From positions 1 through 53,965 of the IMG/VR virus record IMGVR_UViG_3300017726_000004: a stretch of 53,965 nt of DNA, one strand, 5' to 3'. The stretch is from a virus. The notes under the pieces are model-generated. The model made no database searches. It saw only the letters and a program-made list of their open reading frames with translations, and was not told the DNA's origin. Positions 2,178 through 29,084 of this stretch are shown one piece after another; the stretch's first letter is position 1, and each line of letters starts with the position of its first letter. A program made the position numbers and the translations under genes.

Positions 2178-2356
2178 AAGATTGGAACACGGACATGATA
2201 TTTTCCGTCGCAATTGGAAAATCTTCTGGACAATGGGAAAAAGTTGTCTATAATGAACAGACAGCGGGACAAGCATTAAACATAGCCCGCACAGAACATC
2301 CTGATGCAGAGTTCGTTGCTCTCATCGACATCGAAACGAAAAAGGAAAGCCAATGA
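2174..2356 (+). CDS. hypothetical protein (60 aa)
   Basis: It starts in an ATGA overlap and ends overlapping the next ATG at 2353. The protein is predicted to be alpha/beta: it contains 'AGQALNIARTEHPDAEFVALIDI', in which a helix is followed by a strand. That resembles small phage proteins of unknown role. No catalytic motif is visible. Confidence 0.6.
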   Translation: MKDWNTDMIFSVAIGKSSGQWEKVVYNEQTAGQALNIARTEHPDAEFVALIDIETKKESQ

Positions 2357-2790
2357 CCCAAATGAAATTTTTTGATGATATCGAGACTGATCGTGATGCC
2401 GTCGTGGAATACAACGGCGAAGTGGGGCTTTATACTCTCCAGCGATTGCTCGATGGGCAACCCGTGTCAATGTCATCCGATGAAGCGTATCTGTCTCGTG
2501 AAGAGGCAGACGATGCTGCCGATCATTGGATCGAAGGCACTCCCGATCCGCACAGTCTGATGAATTTGCTGGTTGGTGCTTATGCCACGATTGCCCACTT
2601 TGTTGCCGGGGATGATCCTGATTCTGCCGCTGATTGGATCCTTGCGGATCTCCAAGATGAATTCCGAAACTGGAATCTTTGTGGCTTGCACAATCAGGCA
2701 CTTGCCGATCTTGAGGGATTCTACCTTGAGAACGGTTTCCCCGGTGACGAAGAAATTATCAAAGAAACAGTTGACAACGAATCTGAGTGA
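2353..2790 (+). CDS. acidic hypothetical protein (145 aa)
   Basis: The protein is strongly acidic, with many Asp and Glu residues and very few Lys and Arg. It appears helical, with the segment 'DPHSLMNLLVGAYATIAHF' in the middle. It starts in an overlap with the previous gene. The promoter for the next gene (2771-2798) lies inside its 3' end. The strong negative charge might indicate DNA mimicry or a binding role, but no family is recognised. Confidence 0.65.
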   Translation: MTQMKFFDDIETDRDAVVEYNGEVGLYTLQRLLDGQPVSMSSDEAYLSREEADDAADHWIEGTPDPHSLMNLLVGAYATIAHFVAGDDPDSAADWILADLQDEFRNWNLCGLHNQALADLEGFYLENGFPGDEEIIKETVDNESE

Positions 2791-2798
2791 GGTATAAT
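2771..2798 (+). promoter_or_regulatory. sigma70-type promoter for the gene at 2805, predicted leaderless
   Basis: TTGACA (2771-2776), a 16-base spacer and TATAAT (2793-2798) match the consensus exactly. ATG 2805 follows after 6 bases. The promoter overlaps the last codons of the upstream gene. Confidence 0.85.
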
Positions 2799-2804
2799 AC
2801 TTCC

Positions 2805-3125
2805 ATGCACGCAACAACAACAACTGAAATGTCCGACGAAATGTCTGGGTGTCTTGAAGTCGTTAATCAACTTGAAAAACTCATGGATTGCGAAGACTCC
2901 AAACTCTACCAATCCGCTCCGATCATGGGAGCAATTGCCGACAGTGTTGGTAATCGAGTCGCTGATCTTCTCGACCGTGAGGATGAAATGTTTGAGGATG
3001 AGATGGATGAGATTCTCGTTCTCGGAATTCGGACTACTGCCTTGTTGGAACGGCTAACTCGGATCGTTCAAGATGGCAACGATGGTGAATACAAGGAATC
3101 TTGGGAGGACACCTATGACGGTTGA
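2805..3125 (+). CDS. acidic hypothetical protein (106 aa)
   Basis: The start is set by the promoter, whose -10 box ends 6 bases upstream; a GTG further upstream lies inside that promoter. The protein begins with a Thr-rich segment and then forms an acidic helical region with the repeated pattern 'DREDEMFEDEMDEI' near residue 58. It has no recognised domain. Its stop overlaps the next gene start. Confidence 0.65.
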   Translation: MHATTTTEMSDEMSGCLEVVNQLEKLMDCEDSKLYQSAPIMGAIADSVGNRVADLLDREDEMFEDEMDEILVLGIRTTALLERLTRIVQDGNDGEYKESWEDTYDG

Positions 3126-3771: not shown

Positions 3772-3844
3772 GAATTGGTAACTCAGTTGGTAGAGTAGCC
3801 GGCTTTTAACCGGCAAGTCGTGAGTTCGAGCCTCACCCAATTCA
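3772..3844 (+). tRNA. tRNA-Lys (UUU)
   Basis: All four stems close: acceptor GAATTGG/CCAATTC, D stem ACTC/GAGT, anticodon stem GCCGG/CCGGC with loop CTTTTAA, and T stem GTGAG/CTCAC with loop TTCGAGC. The anticodon is TTT, which reads AAA and AAG. The CCA end is not encoded. The gene is 73 bases long with discriminator A. Confidence 0.95.
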
Positions 3845-3895
3845 TTCTTAACCAAGCGAGATAGGACTCGCAGAAAGTATGAGGTATATTGAAAC

Positions 3896-4051
3896 ATGAC
3901 AAATTCTAATATTTCTAAACTGTGCTGGGTTTCAGCATTCGTGACCATCCCCATTTCGGTTGGTCTCTACTTTGCCCACAGCCACGATGCCGGCATTTTT
4001 GTCGGTCTGTGGGTGGCACCGATGATGATTTTGGCTGCCACTAATGATTGA
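3896..4051 (+). CDS. small membrane protein (51 aa)
   Basis: ATG 3896 opens a frame ending TGA 4049-4051. The protein carries a hydrophobic stretch at about residues 10-26 and a second at about 33-47, consistent with two membrane segments joined by 'HSHDAG'. A TATATT box ends 5 bases before the ATG without a clear -35, so a leaderless start is possible but weak. The gene overlaps the next small membrane gene. Function unknown. Confidence 0.55.
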   Translation: MTNSNISKLCWVSAFVTIPISVGLYFAHSHDAGIFVGLWVAPMMILAATND

Positions 4052-4157
4052 ATTGGGCACAGCATTTTGGCAGACGGTCAGTTTCTGCCTTTCTTGCATC
4101 ATCATCGGATTCGGAAGTTTTCTCTTTTATTACGAAAATTTTTACAATAAGGGTTGA
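4044..4157 (+). CDS. very small membrane protein (37 aa)
   Basis: ATG 4044 lies inside the end of the previous gene, an 8-base overlap. The product has one strongly hydrophobic segment with Cys and Ile runs (about residues 11-28), so a single-pass membrane peptide is likely. The stop overlaps the -35 element of the downstream promoter. It was chosen over the TTG frame at 4048, which has no plausible protein features. Confidence 0.45.
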   Translation: MIELGTAFWQTVSFCLSCIIIGFGSFLFYYENFYNKG

Positions 4158-4181
4158 CTTCAATTCTGATTCTGGTATACT
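4154..4181 (+). promoter_or_regulatory. sigma70-type promoter with a structured leader
   Basis: TTGACT (4154-4159), a 16-base spacer and TATACT (4176-4181) predict a start near 4188. This gives a leader of about 63 bases before ATG 4251. It differs from the leaderless promoters of this genome by having a leader and a Shine-Dalgarno sequence. Confidence 0.7.
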
Positions 4182-4186
4182 GGGTT

Positions 4187-4234
4187 TTCACAAGCAGCGA
4201 GGTGCTGCAAAGTTCACAACGGGGTCAAATCCCC
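4187..4234 (+). promoter_or_regulatory. structured 5' leader: two TTCACAA-plus-hairpin units
   Basis: TTCACAA occurs at 4187-4193 and again at 4213-4219. The first is followed at once by hairpin GCAGC-GAGGT-GCTGC (4194-4208). The second is followed by hairpin GGGG-TCAAAT-CCCC (4221-4234). The ribosome-binding site AGGAG lies just downstream. The duplicated layout suggests a cis-acting RNA element, although the ligand or protein is unknown. Confidence 0.5.
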
Positions 4235-4250
4235 ACTAGGAGTTTTTACT

Positions 4251-4493
4251 ATGTCTAATGCACTCAAAACCGTTCGTCCTCTCAAGAAGTTCGCAAACCG
4301 TTTCTCCGTCGAAGGCTTTAACGCTGGCCGTCCTGTTCACGTTATCGAGAACACCGATGCCCAAGGCACCGAGATCAATGTGATCTACCAGCGTGCTGAC
4401 GGATCTTGGCGGACCGCTCCCCGTGACGGCACTCTTCATGCCGCTATCGAGGGAATGTGGTTCCGCAAGCAAGGTGTGATGATCACCGGCTGA
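4251..4493 (+). CDS. hypothetical protein of a single-gene transcript (80 aa)
   Basis: The gene has its own promoter (4154), a structured leader, an AGGAG ribosome-binding site and a strong terminator (4538), so it is a self-contained transcription unit. The protein looks like a small beta-rich fold ('HVIENTDAQGTEINVIYQRADGSWRTA') with an initial basic segment. No family is recognised. The dedicated strong signals suggest high expression. Confidence 0.7.
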   Translation: MSNALKTVRPLKKFANRFSVEGFNAGRPVHVIENTDAQGTEINVIYQRADGSWRTAPRDGTLHAAIEGMWFRKQGVMITG

Positions 4494-4537
4494 TATTGCT
4501 TTCTGGTATCAGTCGAGTCAACACGACTTGGAAACAG

Positions 4538-4568
4538 CACCCCGGCTTCGGCTGGGGTGTTTTTTTTT
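4538..4568 (+). terminator. rho-independent terminator
   Basis: CACCCCGGC (4538-4546), loop TTCG and GCTGGGGTG (4551-4559) form a 9-bp stem followed by an eight- to nine-T tract. It closes the transcript of the gene at 4251. A smaller hairpin, AGTCG/CGACT, precedes it near 4511-4528. Confidence 0.92.
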
Positions 4569-4603
4569 ATACATAGTTTTGTATTACTGAACAGGAGAAA
4601 CAA

Positions 4604-5341
4604 ATGGACGCATACGACCGCTTAACCGCAATCAATGAAGCACTTATTTCCATCGAAGAAAAAAAATCCTTGATGGGTAGACTCGCACGAGCCGCTCAGA
4701 CCATTGGTGCAACTGCCCGAAAAGCCACACGATCAGGAACAGTGTTTACACCCAGAGGGGCGCAAACAAGAAGTCGAACTGGAAGACTCCGAATGCCTAG
4801 AGATGTTATGGCAACCAACCAACCCAGCGAAACTTTAGGATTCAGTGGGAGTGTTAAGAAGAGAATTCGTGGTCAGATGCAATCGGTGAAACAAAAGGTG
4901 AAAAAAATCGGAGGAATTGTCACTAGAGGGAGTGGCGCCGGAAGTGCAGGAACTCTTGACATGGGCACAGGTCGAGCCAAAGAAATGATGAATGGTGCAA
5001 GAGACGCACTTGATGTTGGCTCTGCTGGTAACATTAACACACGAACAGGAAGAATAGGTCCTGACACACGAAGTAAAAAAGGTGAGCAACGAAGCACAGT
5101 CGTCGGAACCACAGACAAAATGACTCCGAGAGAAAAAGTCAAAGCATTGAAAAAAATGAGAAAAAATAGAGACGCTGCTGACTATAGTAGAGGACTGGGA
5201 GATACTTTTAAGAGAGATCAAAAAGAATTGGATGCGATGCCGTTCGGTAGTAAAATGACTAGACGAGATGCACAACGAGGAGCAACCAGAATCGAAATGT
5301 CGGGCCGCTCCAGATTACCGGGAGAACGAGGATACCGTTGA
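4604..5341 (+). CDS. very basic protein, possible capsid internal protein
   Basis: The 245-residue protein is rich in Arg, Lys and Gly and low in hydrophobic residues after its N-terminus, like T4 internal proteins that are packaged with DNA. The N-terminus MDAYDRLTAINEALISIEE contains INE and IEE, which fit the (L/I)xE cleavage rule of the T4 gp21 prohead protease. AGGAG precedes the ATG. TATACATA at 4568-4575 is one base from the T4 late box. Packaging is inferred; a basic scaffold or DNA-binding protein is the alternative. Confidence 0.5.
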   Translation: MDAYDRLTAINEALISIEEKKSLMGRLARAAQTIGATARKATRSGTVFTPRGAQTRSRTGRLRMPRDVMATNQPSETLGFSGSVKKRIRGQMQSVKQKVKKIGGIVTRGSGAGSAGTLDMGTGRAKEMMNGARDALDVGSAGNINTRTGRIGPDTRSKKGEQRSTVVGTTDKMTPREKVKALKKMRKNRDAADYSRGLGDTFKRDQKELDAMPFGSKMTRRDAQRGATRIEMSGRSRLPGERGYR

Positions 5342-17544: not shown

Positions 17545-17571
17545 AAAGGGAGCCTTTTGGCTCCCTTTTTT
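17545..17571. terminator. bidirectional rho-independent terminator
   Basis: AAAGGGAGCC (17545-17554), loop TTTT and GGCTCCCTTT (17559-17568) form a 10-bp stem continued by Ts on the plus strand and As on the other side. It separates the convergent genes ending at 17522 and 17570. Confidence 0.9.
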
Positions 17572-20500
17572 AATATGAGTATCCCCCCATTGATCCACTT
17601 GATGGTGGTGATGGGGGAGGTGTTGGTGTTACAGTTGCTCTTCTTGGTGCCGCTGTGGGTACTGGTGTGGGTGCTGGTGTTTGTTGCACATAGGTAATCG
17701 CTGCTTGAGTTCGTTCTGTGATTGAGTAACCCGGATCAACCACAACCGCATTTGTATCTGTGACATCGGTATACTTACCCACAAACACTTGCTCTTCTAC
17801 ATCAGGGTTATCGTTAAACAAACAGTTAGTGTCTTTGCAAGAAACACCCGGACTGAAGAAACCACCTTGATGCTGACAAGCAATCCTGTTAACATATCGT
17901 TTCTGGAAACCACCCGGCTCCGGAACGCAACAGCAACCAACTGCACATGGTGTATCATAGTCTTCACATTTGTTCAGTAAAGTTCTGTGTGTAGCGTTTT
18001 CTGGACAACCCTGTCCCAGAGTTGATGTGCTACATGTGTATGAAGTAATGTCTCCAAACTCATTTTGTGTTGGGGTACAACAAAGAAGTGGTTCGTCCGG
18101 TCCATATTCACTTCCGCATGGATTTCTTGGATCGTCGCAAGATTGTCCAGCAAAAAATGTTTTGGCACTGTCAACACTGTCATCACAATCTTCTGGTCTT
18201 GTCGTTTCACCATAGGTGATAATTGATCCGTCTGGAAGATACTCTACTTGACAGCAACAACCATTACACGGACCGGATTCACACTCTGCACCGGGATTAT
18301 GTAATCCACCAAGTCGATCACAATCATCTTTTGTTAAGTTGTCAATCGTTGTATTACCAACACAGCAACATCCTTTTGGTGACGGTGTTCCTGTCGGTGA
18401 AATTACTGGACCTAAACACTCTGGACATTCGGTCTGCATAAGTGATTGAACTCGTGCCCAGTATTGATTTGCTCTCGCACATGGTCCACCACCTTCCGCT
18501 TCGTTTGGATTCTGATAACAACAATCCGGTTTTTGGCAACATCTATGACCGCATGTTCCCTCCTTATGCATTTTTGCTAAGTCTTCGCATGTGTAACATG
18601 TGTGTCCGTCTTGACGACTCTTATGTCCACTACCTGTGCAAGCAGGGAGTCCACATGTTCGTTTTCCTTGATTTCGAGTCCACCTTCTATACCAACAATA
18701 GACAATAAGTCTGGACAGTTTTAACTTAAATTGACAACATTCCACTTGAAGCAGTAAAGGAAGTTCGCTACAATCTCGACAAAGCAGTTCATGTGCATTT
18801 GCCGGTATGTCGCAGCAGTGTGGTTCACTTTGTCCTCCACCATAACGACAAACGCTTCTTGCGTCTTCGATGTACGCTGGGAAAATTTGGAATGGACCAC
18901 AACCATTAGCCGTGGCGGACGCTCTAGCATCGCATTGTTTAAGCGGCTGTTGATCATCAAACGGATTTCTCCAATCACCAGACTCAACCGCTTGAATCGC
19001 TTTGAACAAACACTCCATACAATTTGTTTGACATCCTCGTTGTTCACATGTGCAACAAGTGTTTACTCCACCGGGAAAGTCTGGAGGATCTCTTAATGTT
19101 GGGTAGTTTCCGTTCGCTATGTCTTCGGGACTAACGGTGATGTATTCGGGATCATATGGAATTGATCTAGCATAAGTTTCATCATCGACATAGTTACCGT
19201 GAAATTGTTGACCCAGCACATCAAGACCGTTTGGCATAAAGTAGGTAATGCCGTCCAAAACGTGAATATGATACCCAATAAATCCTAGTTGTCTTTCTTC
19301 CTCGTTTCTGGCTTGAGTTGGAGTTGGACTTGCGGCAACTGCGGACTGGGCAGTATTGTAAAGCGGATAATATCCACTAATTGAAAACGGACCAATTGCT
19401 CTTTTTTCTTTGACGTTATAAAGTCCAAGATAATATTCATATAGAGAATCAGAGTTACACGGAAGGTAATACTCTTGATCATTTACTTTTTGTGTTCTGA
19501 TGCCGGGACAACCCAACATAGACGATCTCTTGACTGCTTTTTCTTCAGTGAGGAACATGTCATAGGCTTCAAAAATAGATTCAGAATAATCATTCGTCCG
19601 AATGACGGGTGATGTTACAGAAGACTCATTTGATGCTTTTTTAACGACAATCTCACCACCAAGATCCGTACCCTCGATGTACCAATAATAATTTCTATAA
19701 TCAATCGGTGGACGGAATGTAACATAAGCACCAACAGACCCGAGAGATCCAGAGCGATCAACACCGCTACTAAATTCACTTGCACCTACATTACTTCCAC
19801 CACGAACTTTTGATATCGCAAATCTTTTTCCTAAGTTCTTCAAACTAGGATCGGATAAATCGAAACGATAATATTCACCCGCAAAAAGTTCTATGTTTGT
19901 TTTGCTTTCATCATTAATGGTAAACGAATCGTTATTGTATTTAATATCAAATAGTTCTTTTACAATCTGACGAATTGACCGAGGGACTTTAACTTGTCCA
20001 AGCGTTTGAACATAGTCTCTATATTCTCCCGTGGAAAGAAGGTTTGTTGGAACAACCTCCGGTTCCTCTGGTTGCTGTGTTAGCAGTTGATCTGAACTCT
20101 GAAATGTTTCGGGACAAAGATCACAACTACCATCCATTGGACCCTCAACATTTGTTAAGTTATAATCTTCCCTGTCCGCTCGAATTGTAGCCCAGAAATT
20201 ATAGTTTTCCTCACATTCCACAAACTGATTTGGTTCGATATATCTTTGTGTGTTTGTGTCAAAGATTGTTTCTTTTGCATAGTAACAATTTTTAAACTTA
20301 GTGTCAGAGCCTCGACCCTTGAAGAGCGTTATAATAACCGGAGATCCAGTAAAGTTTGCCTCTTCAAGCCTTCGATTGACAGAAATAATTTCTGTGCCGT
20401 CACTGGCAATATCAATGTCGGTAATTTTGTATAATTTGTTTTCGTTTGCTGCCGCAGATGCCCCAGAAAGTTTTAATGTATCACCAATTAAAGCACCTAA

Positions 20501-21019
20501 GTTTGCAAAGGATTCACTTGAGTCAACACCAAGTTCATTTACAATTTTATATGATTGTGTATTATTTGGTGGAAGAGTGATTCCAATCAAAGGTGTAGTA
20601 TCAAAAAAGTTTGACTTATAAATGTTTCTTTCTGTATCGTAAGAAACACCAGAGACAGGGGTTACTAAAATTCTGTCGTCACCGATGAATCTCTTAAACG
20701 TGTAGGTTCCTGAAAAGTCGGCTTTGATTCCTTGGATAGAATCTGAGTAATTTGCATTTTCAATGGTAAACTGTTTGTTTGTTCCTTTTTTTCGGAAAAT
20801 TGATTGGAACTCATCCAAGTCCAAACGATTTTTGACACTGGAGTAGTCAACGAGAACATCAGTTCCCTGAATAATAAAATTTGGTTTACTCGTTAATCTT
20901 CTCTCGGAAAATAAATCATCCTCTGAGTCTATAAACCTCAGTCCTAAAAAAGTCTTTGAATCTACAGCGTTTAATCTTCTGTTAGATGCATAAGAGTCAT
21001 TATAAATGTCATTATTCAT
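17570..21019 (-). CDS. large virion protein with an invertebrate-type-lysozyme-like domain and Cys-rich modules
   Basis: The 1149-residue protein begins with about 650 residues of structural sequence without Cys clusters. Residues about 660-866 resemble invertebrate-type lysozyme: 'AVESG' (Glu679), 'QCDAR' (Asp697), 'GCGPFQIFPAYIEDA', 'CEDLAKMHKEG' and 'YWARVQ' follow the order of that family, with many Cys. Residues about 880-1070 hold Cys-rich modules like those in the adhesins at 44-54 kb. The C-terminus is Pro/Thr-rich and ends GGYSY. It is probably a tail or baseplate protein that degrades peptidoglycan. It lies one base after the stop of the upstream gene. Confidence 0.7.
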   Translation of the reverse strand: MNNDIYNDSYASNRRLNAVDSKTFLGLRFIDSEDDLFSERRLTSKPNFIIQGTDVLVDYSSVKNRLDLDEFQSIFRKKGTNKQFTIENANYSDSIQGIKADFSGTYTFKRFIGDDRILVTPVSGVSYDTERNIYKSNFFDTTPLIGITLPPNNTQSYKIVNELGVDSSESFANLGALIGDTLKLSGASAAANENKLYKITDIDIASDGTEIISVNRRLEEANFTGSPVIITLFKGRGSDTKFKNCYYAKETIFDTNTQRYIEPNQFVECEENYNFWATIRADREDYNLTNVEGPMDGSCDLCPETFQSSDQLLTQQPEEPEVVPTNLLSTGEYRDYVQTLGQVKVPRSIRQIVKELFDIKYNNDSFTINDESKTNIELFAGEYYRFDLSDPSLKNLGKRFAISKVRGGSNVGASEFSSGVDRSGSLGSVGAYVTFRPPIDYRNYYWYIEGTDLGGEIVVKKASNESSVTSPVIRTNDYSESIFEAYDMFLTEEKAVKRSSMLGCPGIRTQKVNDQEYYLPCNSDSLYEYYLGLYNVKEKRAIGPFSISGYYPLYNTAQSAVAASPTPTQARNEEERQLGFIGYHIHVLDGITYFMPNGLDVLGQQFHGNYVDDETYARSIPYDPEYITVSPEDIANGNYPTLRDPPDFPGGVNTCCTCEQRGCQTNCMECLFKAIQAVESGDWRNPFDDQQPLKQCDARASATANGCGPFQIFPAYIEDARSVCRYGGGQSEPHCCDIPANAHELLCRDCSELPLLLQVECCQFKLKLSRLIVYCWYRRWTRNQGKRTCGLPACTGSGHKSRQDGHTCYTCEDLAKMHKEGTCGHRCCQKPDCCYQNPNEAEGGGPCARANQYWARVQSLMQTECPECLGPVISPTGTPSPKGCCCVGNTTIDNLTKDDCDRLGGLHNPGAECESGPCNGCCCQVEYLPDGSIITYGETTRPEDCDDSVDSAKTFFAGQSCDDPRNPCGSEYGPDEPLLCCTPTQNEFGDITSYTCSTSTLGQGCPENATHRTLLNKCEDYDTPCAVGCCCVPEPGGFQKRYVNRIACQHQGGFFSPGVSCKDTNCLFNDNPDVEEQVFVGKYTDVTDTNAVVVDPGYSITERTQAAITYVQQTPAPTPVPTAAPRRATVTPTPPPSPPSSGSMGGYSY

Positions 21020-23563: not shown

Positions 23564-23593
23564 AAAAGCCCCCGCTTCGGCGGGGGTTTTTTT
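23564..23593. terminator. strong bidirectional rho-independent terminator
   Basis: CCCCCGC (23569-23575), loop TTCG and GCGGGGG (23580-23586) are flanked by AAAA (23564-23567) and seven Ts (23587-23593). It separates gp32 from the convergent tape-measure gene, whose stop lies within it. Confidence 0.93.
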
Positions 23594-25292
23594 ATCCGTT
23601 TCCTATTCTCCAGATAGGGAACATTTTATTTGCCATACCTATCATGTCAAACATAGTTTGACCACCTCCACCTCCACCGAGTCCTGTCGCATGAGGTGTC
23701 TTTACTTTCGCTGGATTTGAAGGTTTCACTCTTGGTGTGTTTGCTTGTGAAGTTTGTTCTCTTCCGGACTGCGAATTTCTATATTTTTCTCGCTGTTCTT
23801 GAAGAGCGGAAAGTTGTGCGGAAAACTCTTTCATTTTTTGCTCTCCCTCCATCGTGATAAGTTCTTCTCTGAGTTTTTCTCCTCTTGGTGCTGGTCGATA
23901 ATCAATCCCACCGGGCGCCTGTTCATCTCGATGTCGTTGCACAACAGCCCGTGCGGCTCCCAAGTAGTCTCTATCCTTGTCCATAGCATCCGTCATCGGG
24001 TACATATATTTTTCATTCCGAGGATCAAATGGACGGCTAGGAAGCACTAATGGATTGTTGTCCATACCTCTGTCTATTTCTAGATCCACTGGGCTACCTT
24101 GAGGACCAATGCCATTGATTGTTAATAAGTTCTGTCGTTGTCTTTCTGCACGTTCAAAGACATCTATACCAGCCTTACGCACCAATCTTGCCTTACTCTC
24201 CTCATTTTTTCGATCCAAACCCGCAAGTCTTTTTTGTCTATCTGATCTTGCTTTTTCTTTTTCTGCTGCTTCTTTCTCTCGATCTGCAAACATCTTTTCC
24301 CGTCTTGCACGCAAATCCTTTCCCGGTTCTCCAACACTCTTCATTCTTTCTTCTGCTCGTCTATCGAGTTTAGCACTCTGAGATTCTTGAGTTTCTGGTC
24401 TTGGAATTCCTCCGGGCCCATACCTATCTCTCAAATCCATCGCTAAAACCGGTCTTCGATCTCTTTGCATTTGTAGATACATTTCTGGATTTACTTTCTC
24501 TGCGGTTTTCAAAATCTGTTCGGCACGATCTGGAAATCTTTCTGCCTGTGTTATTAGGACTTGAATCTCTGCACGATCTTTTCTGTTCTGTATCCCAGAA
24601 CTAAATCTCTCTGATTCCACTTGTCCGGGTGTTTTTAAAAGTCCGGGTGTAGTGGGAGCAATTTTGTCTAGTCTTGCTCTAAATTCTTGATTGTATGAAT
24701 CCATGTCAGATGAAGGAGATGGGTTGGTTATTTGCCTAAACATACTGGAAATTTGAATTTCATCGGCGTTTGGCATAAGATTTCTTGCCATCGTCCCGAA
24801 ACCCTCTTTACTCATGGGCATCTGATTATAAAGAGATCGTAATCTTTCTAGTGGAATCACAGCCTCTGGTCCATTTTCACCAATCAATGCTTGTGTTGGA
24901 CTTGTAACAATACCACCTGTGCGTAATGCGGGAAGTTGTGTCATACCTTTTTCAGTTTTAATCACTGCTGTCTTGAAAGTATATTTGTCAAGTTTTTTGA
25001 TATCTCGTGGGTCGATTTTTTTGAATTTAGTATCTTTTGGTGTGTTCTTACTCAACACTTTTTGTACCATATCTTTTAATTCATTAAAGTCCTTTTCGTA
25101 TGAAACTTCTTTTGTTTCAGAAACAGACTCCAACTTTTCTTGATCAAATCCTCTACTCTTACTGGTGAACTGAATTGCATTGAAAAATTCAACCTCACTC
25201 ATTGGAGTTGGTGTAGTCTCTTTCTTCCGCTTTCTCCCCTTTTTCTTTCCACCAAGAGAGTCTATAATTTTATCTAAGGGTTTGTTTTGCAT
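23592..25292 (-). CDS. tape-measure protein (gp29-like)
   Basis: The 566-residue protein carries the tape-measure signature 'GGIVTSPTQALIGENGPEAV' at residues 126-145, which many tape-measure proteins have near the C-terminus, here unusually early. The rest is Lys/Arg/Glu-rich and helical ('EKEAAEKEKARSDRQKRLAG'), and the C-terminus has 'GLGGGGGGQTMFDMIGMANK'. Its length is close to T4 gp29 (590). It follows the gp26 frameshift unit, the usual place of a tape-measure gene after tail-assembly chaperones. It sets tail length and sits in the tube lumen. Confidence 0.75.
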   Translation of the reverse strand: MQNKPLDKIIDSLGGKKKGRKRKKETTPTPMSEVEFFNAIQFTSKSRGFDQEKLESVSETKEVSYEKDFNELKDMVQKVLSKNTPKDTKFKKIDPRDIKKLDKYTFKTAVIKTEKGMTQLPALRTGGIVTSPTQALIGENGPEAVIPLERLRSLYNQMPMSKEGFGTMARNLMPNADEIQISSMFRQITNPSPSSDMDSYNQEFRARLDKIAPTTPGLLKTPGQVESERFSSGIQNRKDRAEIQVLITQAERFPDRAEQILKTAEKVNPEMYLQMQRDRRPVLAMDLRDRYGPGGIPRPETQESQSAKLDRRAEERMKSVGEPGKDLRARREKMFADREKEAAEKEKARSDRQKRLAGLDRKNEESKARLVRKAGIDVFERAERQRQNLLTINGIGPQGSPVDLEIDRGMDNNPLVLPSRPFDPRNEKYMYPMTDAMDKDRDYLGAARAVVQRHRDEQAPGGIDYRPAPRGEKLREELITMEGEQKMKEFSAQLSALQEQREKYRNSQSGREQTSQANTPRVKPSNPAKVKTPHATGLGGGGGGQTMFDMIGMANKMFPIWRIGNG

Positions 25293-25473
25293 TTTGTCTT
25301 TCCCGTAACTTTTTGTTTTCCTCTTCGATATGTTGTTTTACTAATTCAACATAAATGTCTCTTTCCCACGGAATCATCATGTCGGTTTCAAGTAAACTCA
25401 TCTTAAAGTGTATAAACAAATCAAAATTAATTTTAAATATTGTTTCTAACGAGTCATGGCAAAGACTTAGCCG
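25270..25473 (-). CDS. gp51-like extension of gp26, made by -1 frameshifting
   Basis: This open frame has no usable start at its upstream end; the first in-frame ATG (25401) lies inside it with no ribosome-binding site. It continues gp26 after the slippery site in the -1 frame. The 67 added residues include 'HDSLETIFKINFDLFIHFK' and 'MSLLETDMMIPWERDIYVEL', the 'MIPWER' helix pattern known from tail-assembly chaperone extensions. The combined product would have 295 residues. The frame overlaps the start of the tape-measure gene by 23 bases. Confidence 0.75.
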   Translation of the reverse strand, partial: RLSLCHDSLETIFKINFDLFIHFKMSLLETDMMIPWERDIYVELVKQHIEEENKKLRERQNAKQTLR

Positions 25474-26156
25474 AAAAAATCTTTCATTCCCTCCAACTTA
25501 ATTGATCTTTCCGTACCGTCCGATGTTCTGTATGGTACATCCATTGTAATTTTTGGTTGCTCAAGAAGGTAGTCTTGAATTTTATAATATTGTTCCTTTG
25601 TGAGATTTTCCAATATGGTTTCCTTTTCCGTCGCACTCAAAGAAACACCTTCATACACTTCGTCTTCCACAACAATTTTTTCAACACAGTGTGAAAGAAT
25701 ACTATCAAAATCCGTGTTACTCTCTTCAATGTAATCTCGAACCATAGGAGAACGCATATGAAAAGTAATTGCATCGTTTATTTTAATTTCAGAAGCCGGA
25801 TTGTTTCTTGAAATTTCAATTTTTGTTAAATCAATTCCAATTTTGACGTTTTCACCCGTTTCTGGACAAGTAAAAATCGGTTCCACCATCTCAGAAACAG
25901 ATTTTGATCGAATTTGACAAAAAAGGTATTCTAGATCGTGCATTGGAATCTTCTTTGCATCATTGACGTTATCCACGCAGTTTTCAACGACTGCGGCAAT
26001 CGCTAAAAGCATTTCGGATGACTTTTCTGAATCTGCCATCATCAAAACTCTTTGCTCTTTCATCAAAAACGGTCTAAATGTGGTTTTTGATCCCGTTGAC
26101 GGAATAACTACCTCATATTTTGGTAAAGTTGTTTGTATCGCTTCAAGTATGCTCAT
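25467..26156 (-). CDS. 26: baseplate hub/tail-assembly chaperone gp26
   Basis: The 229-residue protein matches T4 gp26 in length (208) and pattern: 'LPKYEVVIPSTGSKTTFRPF', 'MKEQRVLMMADSE', 'DLEYLFCQIRSKSVSE' and 'FTCPETGENVKIGIDL'. In T4 it is needed for hub assembly; its position just before a tape-measure gene and the frameshift site make it the equivalent of phage lambda G. It ends KDFFG, with the slippery heptamer in its last three sense codons. Confidence 0.85.
   Translation of the reverse strand: MSILEAIQTTLPKYEVVIPSTGSKTTFRPFLMKEQRVLMMADSEKSSEMLLAIAAVVENCVDNVNDAKKIPMHDLEYLFCQIRSKSVSEMVEPIFTCPETGENVKIGIDLTKIEISRNNPASEIKINDAITFHMRSPMVRDYIEESNTDFDSILSHCVEKIVVEDEVYEGVSLSATEKETILENLTKEQYYKIQDYLLEQPKITMDVPYRTSDGTERSIKLEGMKDFFG
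25473..25479 (-). promoter_or_regulatory. programmed -1 frameshift site UUUUUUC
   Basis: Reading the minus strand, codons GAT TTT TTC GGC TAA contain T-TTT-TTC in the correct X-XXY-YYZ phase two codons before the stop. A -1 slip gives CGG CTA AGT and enters the gp51-like frame. AGTC/GACT with CTA/TAG downstream can form a hairpin of about 7 bp with a bulge. Confidence 0.75.
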
Positions 26157-26171
26157 TATCTTCTCCTATTA

Positions 26172-26765
26172 TCAATAACTTGCTGGGTTGCTTCCCAGAG
26201 ATCCAATTTCGGGTATGTATTCTTTAAATCCAATTGCCACATTAAGCATGGCAAGTTGATTCATTTGCTCTTGCGAGTATGTTTCTTGAATGATGGTTGA
26301 AACATAAGGTTCAATGACTCGCATTTGCCATCTGATGTTATCGTTCATATCCAAAAAAGAAATCCTCATGGTTGAACCTTCCGCAAGATTAACATAACTA
26401 CCGCTGCGTTGAAGGTAGGCATCAGAAACGTCTTGAGTTAATGGGTAAAACCTGTCTGCCCATTTTTCAAAAAACGCTCTGGTGAACCAATTCTGATCTA
26501 TAAAAAATCCAAGTAGAATGGTTGCTTCTCCACCATACGCTCTTCTCATCGGAACTATTCGTGGGTTTGAACCTTGGGCAACGATATCGTCTGGCATCCC
26601 AAGAAAACTTCTACCGGGAAGAGATACCGTTTGTGCGGGCATACTTAAAGTACCAATCCCCTCGACGTTAATAAAAACCTCGAACCGATTTGCTCGTTGA
26701 AGTCCTCTGGAAATAACTTTCCATCTTAGTGCATCGGGGTTTGATGGATGTCTTGATTTTGCCAT
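26172..26765 (-). CDS. tail-tube-fold protein (gp19/gp54 family)
   Basis: The 197-residue protein shows the myovirus tail-tube pattern: 'RANRFEVFINVEGIGTLSMP', 'PGRSFLGMPDD', 'MRRAYGGEATILLGFFIDQN', 'FFEKWADRFYP' and 'YVSTI...MLNVAIGFKEYIPE'. In T4 both the tube gp19 and the baseplate initiator gp54 share this fold. Its size is nearer gp19 (163), while its neighbourhood with gp26, tape measure and gp48 favours a gp54 role. The ATG overlaps the stop of gp4. Confidence 0.75.
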   Translation of the reverse strand: MAKSRHPSNPDALRWKVISRGLQRANRFEVFINVEGIGTLSMPAQTVSLPGRSFLGMPDDIVAQGSNPRIVPMRRAYGGEATILLGFFIDQNWFTRAFFEKWADRFYPLTQDVSDAYLQRSGSYVNLAEGSTMRISFLDMNDNIRWQMRVIEPYVSTIIQETYSQEQMNQLAMLNVAIGFKEYIPEIGSLGSNPASY

Positions 26766-27207: not shown

Positions 27208-27219
27208 GTGGGGGTAACA

Positions 27220-28143
27220 ATGGCTGAAGAAGAATATGAACCCGATTTGCTCGATAATCAAATTGCTGGAGCGTATCCAACGAATAATGTTAATTTGGAA
27301 TACCCAGAGTATAGACAAAACGAAGTTAGATACTGGCTCAACTTTTCTGCTAGAAGATATAGTAACAGAAGAGCAGAAAAAGCAGGTGGTGGACGAAAAG
27401 GTAAATTAGTAAATATTACATTACCAATGCCCACAAATATGAACTCAACATCAAATGTTAATTATGAAATTGATCAAAGCAATGAAACACCCTTTATTGA
27501 AGTCATACAAAGTAGTCTCGATCAACTCATGGCTGGGAACGTTTTAGGTGCGGCAAAACGTGCTATCGGTGGTATTCTTGATCCGTTGTCTGAAAGTATT
27601 ATTGACTTAACTGTTGGTGGAAATCTTGGTCGAGTCAGTATGGACACGGGTGAGAGTTTATTCCAATCCGCAAACCCCAGAACATTTAACTTTTCGTTTG
27701 CATTGATCGCTAGAAATGCAAGCGAATCTACAAAGATTGGTAGAATTGCAAAAGCGTTTGAAGCATATGCTCTTCCCTTCCCTGCAACCAGCCTTGCTGG
27801 TAACATCTCTGCCAACGCAATGATTCACCCACCACTTTGGTCGTGGTCTCCATACGTTACAACTCCTACTGGATTTGGATTTGTTCAAACGAAAGAACAA
27901 AAGCCAAATTTAGAATTTTGGACAAGTAGTCCGCAAACCTCCGTTCTCACTCAAGTTAGTGTTGATAAAACACCACTGAATACCATTTCTGGTTCTGGTA
28001 GTGACGCACCAATCGCAACAATTATTACCTTACAATATTTAGAACTAGAGCCAAACATGAATGTTAACGGAAAAATTAGAAGTCGTTCTGCTATTACAAG
28101 TAAAGCAGGTCAAAGTATTGATGCAAGTGGATTATTTGGCTGA
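27220..28143 (+). CDS. 48: baseplate tail-tube cap protein gp48-like
   Basis: ATG 27220 follows GGGGGT and is preferred over the GTG at 27208. The 307-residue protein has the gp48 core 'ANPRTFNFSFALIARNASES', 'AFEAYALPFPA', 'MIHPPLWSWSPYV' and late strands 'ATIITLQYLELEPN'. gp48 caps the tail tube on the baseplate. Only 23 bases separate its ATG from the divergent gp4 start, so both promoters share that space or lie in coding sequence. It heads a continuous plus-strand run of baseplate genes. Confidence 0.75.
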   Translation: MAEEEYEPDLLDNQIAGAYPTNNVNLEYPEYRQNEVRYWLNFSARRYSNRRAEKAGGGRKGKLVNITLPMPTNMNSTSNVNYEIDQSNETPFIEVIQSSLDQLMAGNVLGAAKRAIGGILDPLSESIIDLTVGGNLGRVSMDTGESLFQSANPRTFNFSFALIARNASESTKIGRIAKAFEAYALPFPATSLAGNISANAMIHPPLWSWSPYVTTPTGFGFVQTKEQKPNLEFWTSSPQTSVLTQVSVDKTPLNTISGSGSDAPIATIITLQYLELEPNMNVNGKIRSRSAITSKAGQSIDASGLFG

Positions 28144-29084
28144 TGGAATATTTTAACAACTTTCCAAAATTGAAGTATAAATTTCCCAATAACGTTTCAG
28201 TTGAAATGTTAGATATCTTTCGTAATGTAAAGATGAGACGTTTTTTGGATAAACCTGAACTTTTTGAATATTACACCTTAACTGACGGAGAAAGACCTGA
28301 AGGTATAGCAAACAAATATTATGAGGATCCTTCATTATATTGGTTAGTCCTCATGTCAAACGATATTGAAGATGTAAACACTGAGTGGCCAAGATTTACT
28401 GCGGATGAGGATAGAACTCTCACAAATCAATACTCCGGATATGCGTTTTTCTTTGATAATGAAATGGAACTCCAAAAAGGTGATATCATTACAAAATATG
28501 ATGTTTCCGCAGAAGGTACAGTTTCTGGGGATTATGGTGTTGTTTATAACCATGATTTTTCGTTAAACAAAACCGAAGTAAGAAATCACAATTTTACTTC
28601 ATCGACCATTACAACGGGAACAACTGGTCTTGGTGCGTATTATGTTTTTCGTGAAACTTCCAACGGACAGTTCACCACTCTTGGAAATCAGTTAACACCA
28701 AAAAGAATTGAAAACTTAAAAGATGCCGTTTTATATTTTAGACACAAAGATGGTTATGTAGTAAGTCCAGCATTAAAACTTACCACGGCTTCTGCATTTG
28801 ATAATCTTGATGTTAATTTATTTCCAACAAATAATCTTAAAACAAGTGTTAATACAGTTTTACAAAAATATTTAAATGGTAGAACAAATATTATAGAAGA
28901 CGCAAATATTTCAATTGTCGCACTTCAAAATCAGTTGGATGAAAATTCCTCAAACACTATACGTTTGCTTAGAAAAGAATTTGTCGGTCCAGTTGTAGGT
29001 GAAATTAGAAGACTTCTCTCCGAGAGTGGAAGTCAAAGTTCGATTGTTTCTTTGTCATCTGGAGGACTTGGTGGTTATGGTTGA
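28143..29084 (+). CDS. 53: baseplate wedge protein gp53
   Basis: It begins one base inside the stop of gp48. The N-terminal 90 residues are a clear gp53 signature: 'YYTLTDGERPEGIANKYYED' and 'LYWLVLMSNDIEDVNTEWP', a LysM-like element. At 313 residues it is longer than T4 gp53 (196); the added C-terminal half contains 'IIEDANISIVALQNQLDENS' and a Gly-rich end (GGLGGYG). In T4 gp53 helps join wedges around the hub. Confidence 0.9.
   Translation: MEYFNNFPKLKYKFPNNVSVEMLDIFRNVKMRRFLDKPELFEYYTLTDGERPEGIANKYYEDPSLYWLVLMSNDIEDVNTEWPRFTADEDRTLTNQYSGYAFFFDNEMELQKGDIITKYDVSAEGTVSGDYGVVYNHDFSLNKTEVRNHNFTSSTITTGTTGLGAYYVFRETSNGQFTTLGNQLTPKRIENLKDAVLYFRHKDGYVVSPALKLTTASAFDNLDVNLFPTNNLKTSVNTVLQKYLNGRTNIIEDANISIVALQNQLDENSSNTIRLLRKEFVGPVVGEIRRLLSESGSQSSIVSLSSGGLGGYG

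Follow-up and report, generated by a model that had tools for sequence, protein, structure and literature searches.

A conserved T-run at the end of gene 26 very probably gives rise to a short and a long tail-assembly chaperone in an uncultured T4-like phage

Introduction

In bacteriophage lambda, the products G and GT represent a short and a long chaperone that arise from one -1 slip. For the T4-like phages, the work of Vladimirov and colleagues from 2022 is said to have found the frameshift conserved in several groups, with the T4 group using separate genes. According to a passage of PMC12846349, the T4-like tail-assembly chaperones were published in that work (Vladimirov, Gautam & Davidson, Virology 2022, 566:9-15), and the same passage credits to it the poly-T slippery sites found in genes for the short form. 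An older observation concerns gp51 of cyanophages and marine vibriophages, which looked about 80% truncated and without its first ~200 residues (Sullivan et al. 2010, PMC3037559).

Here, we describe the corresponding locus in an uncultured virus represented by the IMG/VR record IMGVR_UViG_3300017726_000004, of which the whole analysed stretch of 53,965 nucleotides is referred to as the window. A sequence-only reading of this DNA had suggested that a programmed -1 frameshift joins gp26 to a gp51-like frame ahead of the tape-measure gene.

Results and Discussion

All genes of the tail-assembly chaperone locus are located on the minus strand. The gp26-like gene (25467..26156) encodes a protein of 229 amino acids that matches PF12322 (T4_baseplate; 1.4e-49) and phrog_150 (5.4e-51), and these matches together with its predicted fold point to the short tail-assembly chaperone (TAC-N, the equivalent of lambda G). 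A base-by-base check of the minus strand revealed that the gene ends with ...GAG GGA ATG AAA GAT TTT TTC GGC TAA, and that the slippery heptamer T_TTT_TTC (25473..25479), positioned 10 nt ahead of the stop codon, reads in the phase X_XXY_YYZ of gp26 from 25479 to 25473. The UUUUUUC that had been noticed within the last codons of gp26 is thus present in the right phase. Upon a -1 slip, reading would continue with CGG (25473) CTA AGT through 67 sense codons to the TAA at 25272-25270. This extension (25270..25473, minus strand), the putative TAC-C part of the long chaperone, would add 67 residues to 228 residues of gp26 and result in a fusion of 295 residues with a junction peptide in which GMKDFF is followed directly by RLSLCHD, in agreement with the coordinates and lengths originally proposed.

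The locus therefore combines an open -1 frame with a phased heptamer close to the stop of the zero frame. However, among the 85 frames of 100 or more codons in the window, 30 are followed by a -1 frame that remains open for at least 60 codons past the stop and nine contain a heptamer, although only two show both features. Because open -1 frames and heptamers occur elsewhere in the window, our conclusion rests on conservation and not on the single sequence. A nucleotide search of phage records gave no match. We discarded a heptamer with an open -1 frame near position 2788 on the plus strand (window 2353-3125), which represents an ordinary overlap of genes containing a chance heptamer; the gene downstream of it begins at a start codon of its own.

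With respect to the neighbourhood, the genes are arranged in the order tail tube, gp26, extension and long ORF. The gene upstream of gp26 (26172..26765, minus strand) encodes a tail-tube-like protein (phrog_45 tail tube, 1.4e-7), and the end of the extension is overlapped by an ORF of 566 amino acids (23592..25292, minus strand), a candidate tape-measure protein that matches tape-measure PHROGs weakly (3.5e-6 over 32 residues). Relatives harbor a long ORF at the same place, and several of these likewise show weak tape-measure matches. The gene order fits the suggested lambda G/GT layout ahead of the tape measure, whereas the tape-measure identity of the 566-aa ORF is a weak assignment that draws on a short motif, the PHROG match and position.

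Genes for baseplate tail-tube cap-like (phrog_230) and baseplate wedge gp53-like proteins are located at 27208-29084 on the plus strand, divergent from the gp26 operon. The minus strand at 17570-21019 encodes a cysteine-rich protein of 1149 amino acids with repeated CCC-type motifs, a weak match to a tail-fibre PHROG (3e-5) and no match to Pfam.

The AlphaFold model of gp26 has a pLDDT of 85. When the N-domain was compared with the PDB using Foldseek, the top two matches corresponded to the HK97 tail-assembly chaperone 2ob9 (prob 0.95, E 0.017), followed by 3fgx (TM 0.62), with no PDB match below E 0.001. The modelled N-domain is thus suggestive of a likeness to the HK97 tail-assembly chaperone that is not significant alone. 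Together, layout and predicted N-domain fold fit tail-assembly chaperones.

The names of the protein families point in another direction, as phrog_150 is termed 'baseplate hub' and phrog_634, which matches the extension at 1.6e-19, 'baseplate hub assembly catalyst', suggesting that both gene products are structural parts of the hub. Likewise, gp26 was at one time assigned to the T4 hub on genetic grounds (reviewed in PMC3004832). However, the same review counts both T4 proteins, gp26 and gp51, among the hub assembly chaperones, with gp51 absent from the particle, and the record of Acinetobacter phage Konradin, a T4-like phage, already names its gp26 and gp51 tape measure assembly chaperones. 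Moreover, the position between the tail tube and the long ORF, the N-domain fold and the two-form gene architecture speak against hub components, and we regard such a structural role as very improbable.

Conservation of the slippery site and the frame can be evaluated by aligning the junction in related phages, as had been proposed along with the sequence-only reading. Our sample, drawn from IMG/VR and phage records, comprises 126 loci in which the end of gp26 could be read, of which 116 are distinct around the junction, and includes phages of Caulobacter, Agrobacterium, Acidovorax, Stenotrophomonas, Vibrio and Aeromonas. We deliberately kept T4 and phages close to it, in which the slippery site is missing, out of the 116 and treated them separately. 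An in-frame T6N heptamer is kept in the last gp26 codons of all 116 distinct relatives (TTTTTTC in 77, TTTTTTT in 35 and TTTTTTA in 4), mostly at a distance of 10 or 7 nt from the gp26 stop, as compared to 3 of 21,584 codons elsewhere in the gp26 genes (1.4e-4 per codon); since the loci share ancestry, these figures do not represent independent trials. In addition, the codon preceding the slip ends with T in 116/116 cases, compared to 73% of comparable D/N/S codons elsewhere, and the first Phe codon at the slip is TTT in 116/116, compared to 68.5% elsewhere. TTT is used at this position despite codon bias, since the other Phe codons are TTT in 0 of 11 cases in gp26 of Acidovorax ACP17 and in 1 of 11 in Agrobacterium Atu_ph04. 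Taken together, the slippery site, its phase, the -1 frame and the peptide are all conserved across the sampled relatives, and no relative with a lost site was found among the 116. The T4 subgroup lacks the site and has two genes instead.

The extension is commonly labelled 'gp51 baseplate hub assembly catalyst' in databases, and homologous -1 peptides are present in relatives. Besides phrog_634, it matches the tail columns 238-280 of phrog_150, though weakly (0.012), and it contains the MIPWER-type segment noticed at first inspection. Database records annotate it as a separate small gene with its own internal start, and separate gp51 genes of 45-60 aa are found in the records of, e.g., S-PM2, Cr30, PX29, Mosig and Melnitz. 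In many relatives, an ATG does follow the slip within a few codons, and separate initiation is formally possible there. However, 36 of the 116 loci contain no ATG, GTG or TTG within the first 14 codons past the slip, although the peptide is still conserved there, its homology among relatives beginning right at the slip (FF-x-L-x-L-S-H-x-x-L ...); frameshifting therefore best explains how the -1 frame is reached. In the phage studied here, no start is present at the head of the frame, as had been stated, and the first TTG is found at codon 19 and the first ATG at codon 25. The Shine-Dalgarno duplexes at these positions were calculated as +1.7 and +1.5 kcal/mol, respectively, in contrast to -7.3 for the gp26 start, indicating that neither is preceded by a Shine-Dalgarno sequence. 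Given these late starts, separate initiation is unlikely in this phage. Moreover, the invariance of the T6 heptamer, kept against codon bias, would have no reason if gp51 were a gene of its own, and T4 gp51 carries a gp26-like domain in the same chain. Hence, we consider an independently initiated gp51 very improbable.

The motif GGAGGGA (25488..25494, minus strand), located 8 nt upstream of the slip, resembles a Shine-Dalgarno sequence and is probably a stimulator, judging from its sequence and from the codon bias in relatives. The Glu codon of the GAGGG-like element is GAG in 60 of 80 relatives as compared to 657 of 2,187 elsewhere, and GGG serves as the Gly codon in 25 of 113 as compared to 35 of 613. 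Correspondingly, the mean energy of the anti-SD duplex upstream of the slip is -6.75 versus -5.25 in synonymous shuffles. Just downstream of the slip, the RNA of relatives folds more strongly than shuffled sequences, with a mean z of -1.65 at +10 versus a background of about -0.3. Some relatives carry long hairpins in this region, which differ between relatives, and a consensus RNA structure downstream of the slip was not found across them. One downstream helix of 5 bp covaries, its score being reached by 0 of 500 shuffles with relatedness not controlled, and is better supported than a helix of 11 bp, which was rejected as not clearly better than slid controls. In the phage studied here, no downstream hairpin is evident (fold z 0.2).

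Phage S-PM2 harbors a very strong hairpin with a stem of 13 bp, as counted by eye, at positions 2181-2238 of its sampled locus, ~10 nt downstream of the slip (fold z about -8).

Transcriptional slippage on the T run, for which the homopolymeric nature of the site and the seven Ts in 35 of the 116 loci could be invoked, is a very improbable origin of the long form, as 77 of the 116 sites contain only six Ts followed by C, a run that is short for polymerase slippage, and the strict X_XXY_YYZ phase, the SD-like sequence and the excess of downstream folding suit ribosomal slippage.

Considering the conserved site, frame and peptide as well as the layout and the N-domain fold, which all support this assignment, we are highly confident that gp26 and its -1 extension serve this T4-like phage as its pair of tail-assembly chaperones. 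Through a one-base backward slip at the six T's, a single helper protein of tail building would very probably exist in two versions, one short and one long. We infer that most ribosomes would stop at the TAA at 25469 and release the short form of 229 aa, and that a minority would slip by -1 on U_UUU_UUC, probably aided by GGAGGGA, to synthesize the long form of 295 aa comprising the MIPWER domain. By analogy to lambda G/GT, the role of the short form would be to coat the tape-measure protein and that of the extension to recruit tail-tube subunits, and both forms would leave before completion of the virion.

In view of the publication from 2022 and the annotation of Konradin, the finding, albeit correct, is therefore already known, and the locus is a new instance of it. 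The remark that a chaperone role is not the usual annotation in T4-like phages still applies to the databases, where annotation lags, but the idea itself is not new. Our contribution consists of the quantification, indications of stimulators of the SD-like and hairpin types, and a further, uncultured phage lineage. Many database records split one frameshifted chaperone into two baseplate-hub proteins, and annotators can use the T6N rule for the correction of gp26/gp51 records. In addition, the older puzzle of gp51 in cyanophages and marine vibriophages receives a plain account, as the protein appears truncated because gene 26 carries the coding sequence for its first ~200 residues.

Comparison with Known Systems

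The locus resembles lambda G/GT in its position just before a candidate tape-measure gene. However, the slip in lambda takes place on G_GGA_AAG and not on a T-run, and HMM comparison detected no sequence similarity of G/GT to gp26 and the extension. Closer in its signal is phage P2, where a -1 slip on T_TTT_TTG ends the short gene E directly before the tape-measure gene and generates E+E'. P2 E' contains SLTELITWREKA, which resembles YSLTEIENMIPWERE, a likeness restricted to a short motif. P2 E differs in size (91 aa as compared to 229 aa for gp26), and homology of E/E' to gp26 and the extension was not found by HMM comparison (E about 1.3); the P2 E relatives from viral contigs are near-identical and yielded no useful profile. 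As a tentative proposal, about which we are more doubtful than confident, the frameshift level across T4-like phages may be tuned by interchangeable stimulators, namely the SD-like GAGGG upstream and lineage-specific hairpins downstream, with some lineages, including this one, lacking a hairpin and relying on the SD-like element, and the extension may share ancestry with P2 E', in which case T_TTT_TTN would be an ancestral signal of myophage chaperones.

In T4 (NC_000866), gp26 and gp51 are encoded by divergent neighbouring genes (3803-4429, minus strand, and 4480-5229, plus strand, of the T4 locus), both belonging to PF12322, which T4 gp51 matches at 3.9e-52. An HMM of in-silico fusions aligned with T4 gp51 in one stretch from model positions 23 to 280 of 295 (E 3e-15), and with T4 gp26 only from positions 10 to 235. 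T4 gp26 thus corresponds to the short form and T4 gp51 to the whole fusion, consisting of a gp26-like domain and the extension, and T4 therefore has a short-form and a long-form gene. In contrast to the phage studied here, these are two separate genes; T4 gp26 keeps GLKEFF, but coded as ...GAG TTC TTT GAG..., and in its gene both the slippery site and the -1 frame are absent. With separate genes in the T4 group and a conserved, predicted frameshift in the others, our data agree with the picture reportedly given in 2022. By our reading, the T4-like chaperones described by Vladimirov et al. belong to the same gene family (PF12322, phrog_150/phrog_634) as those of the present phage, which differs from them in representing a new, uncultured lineage.
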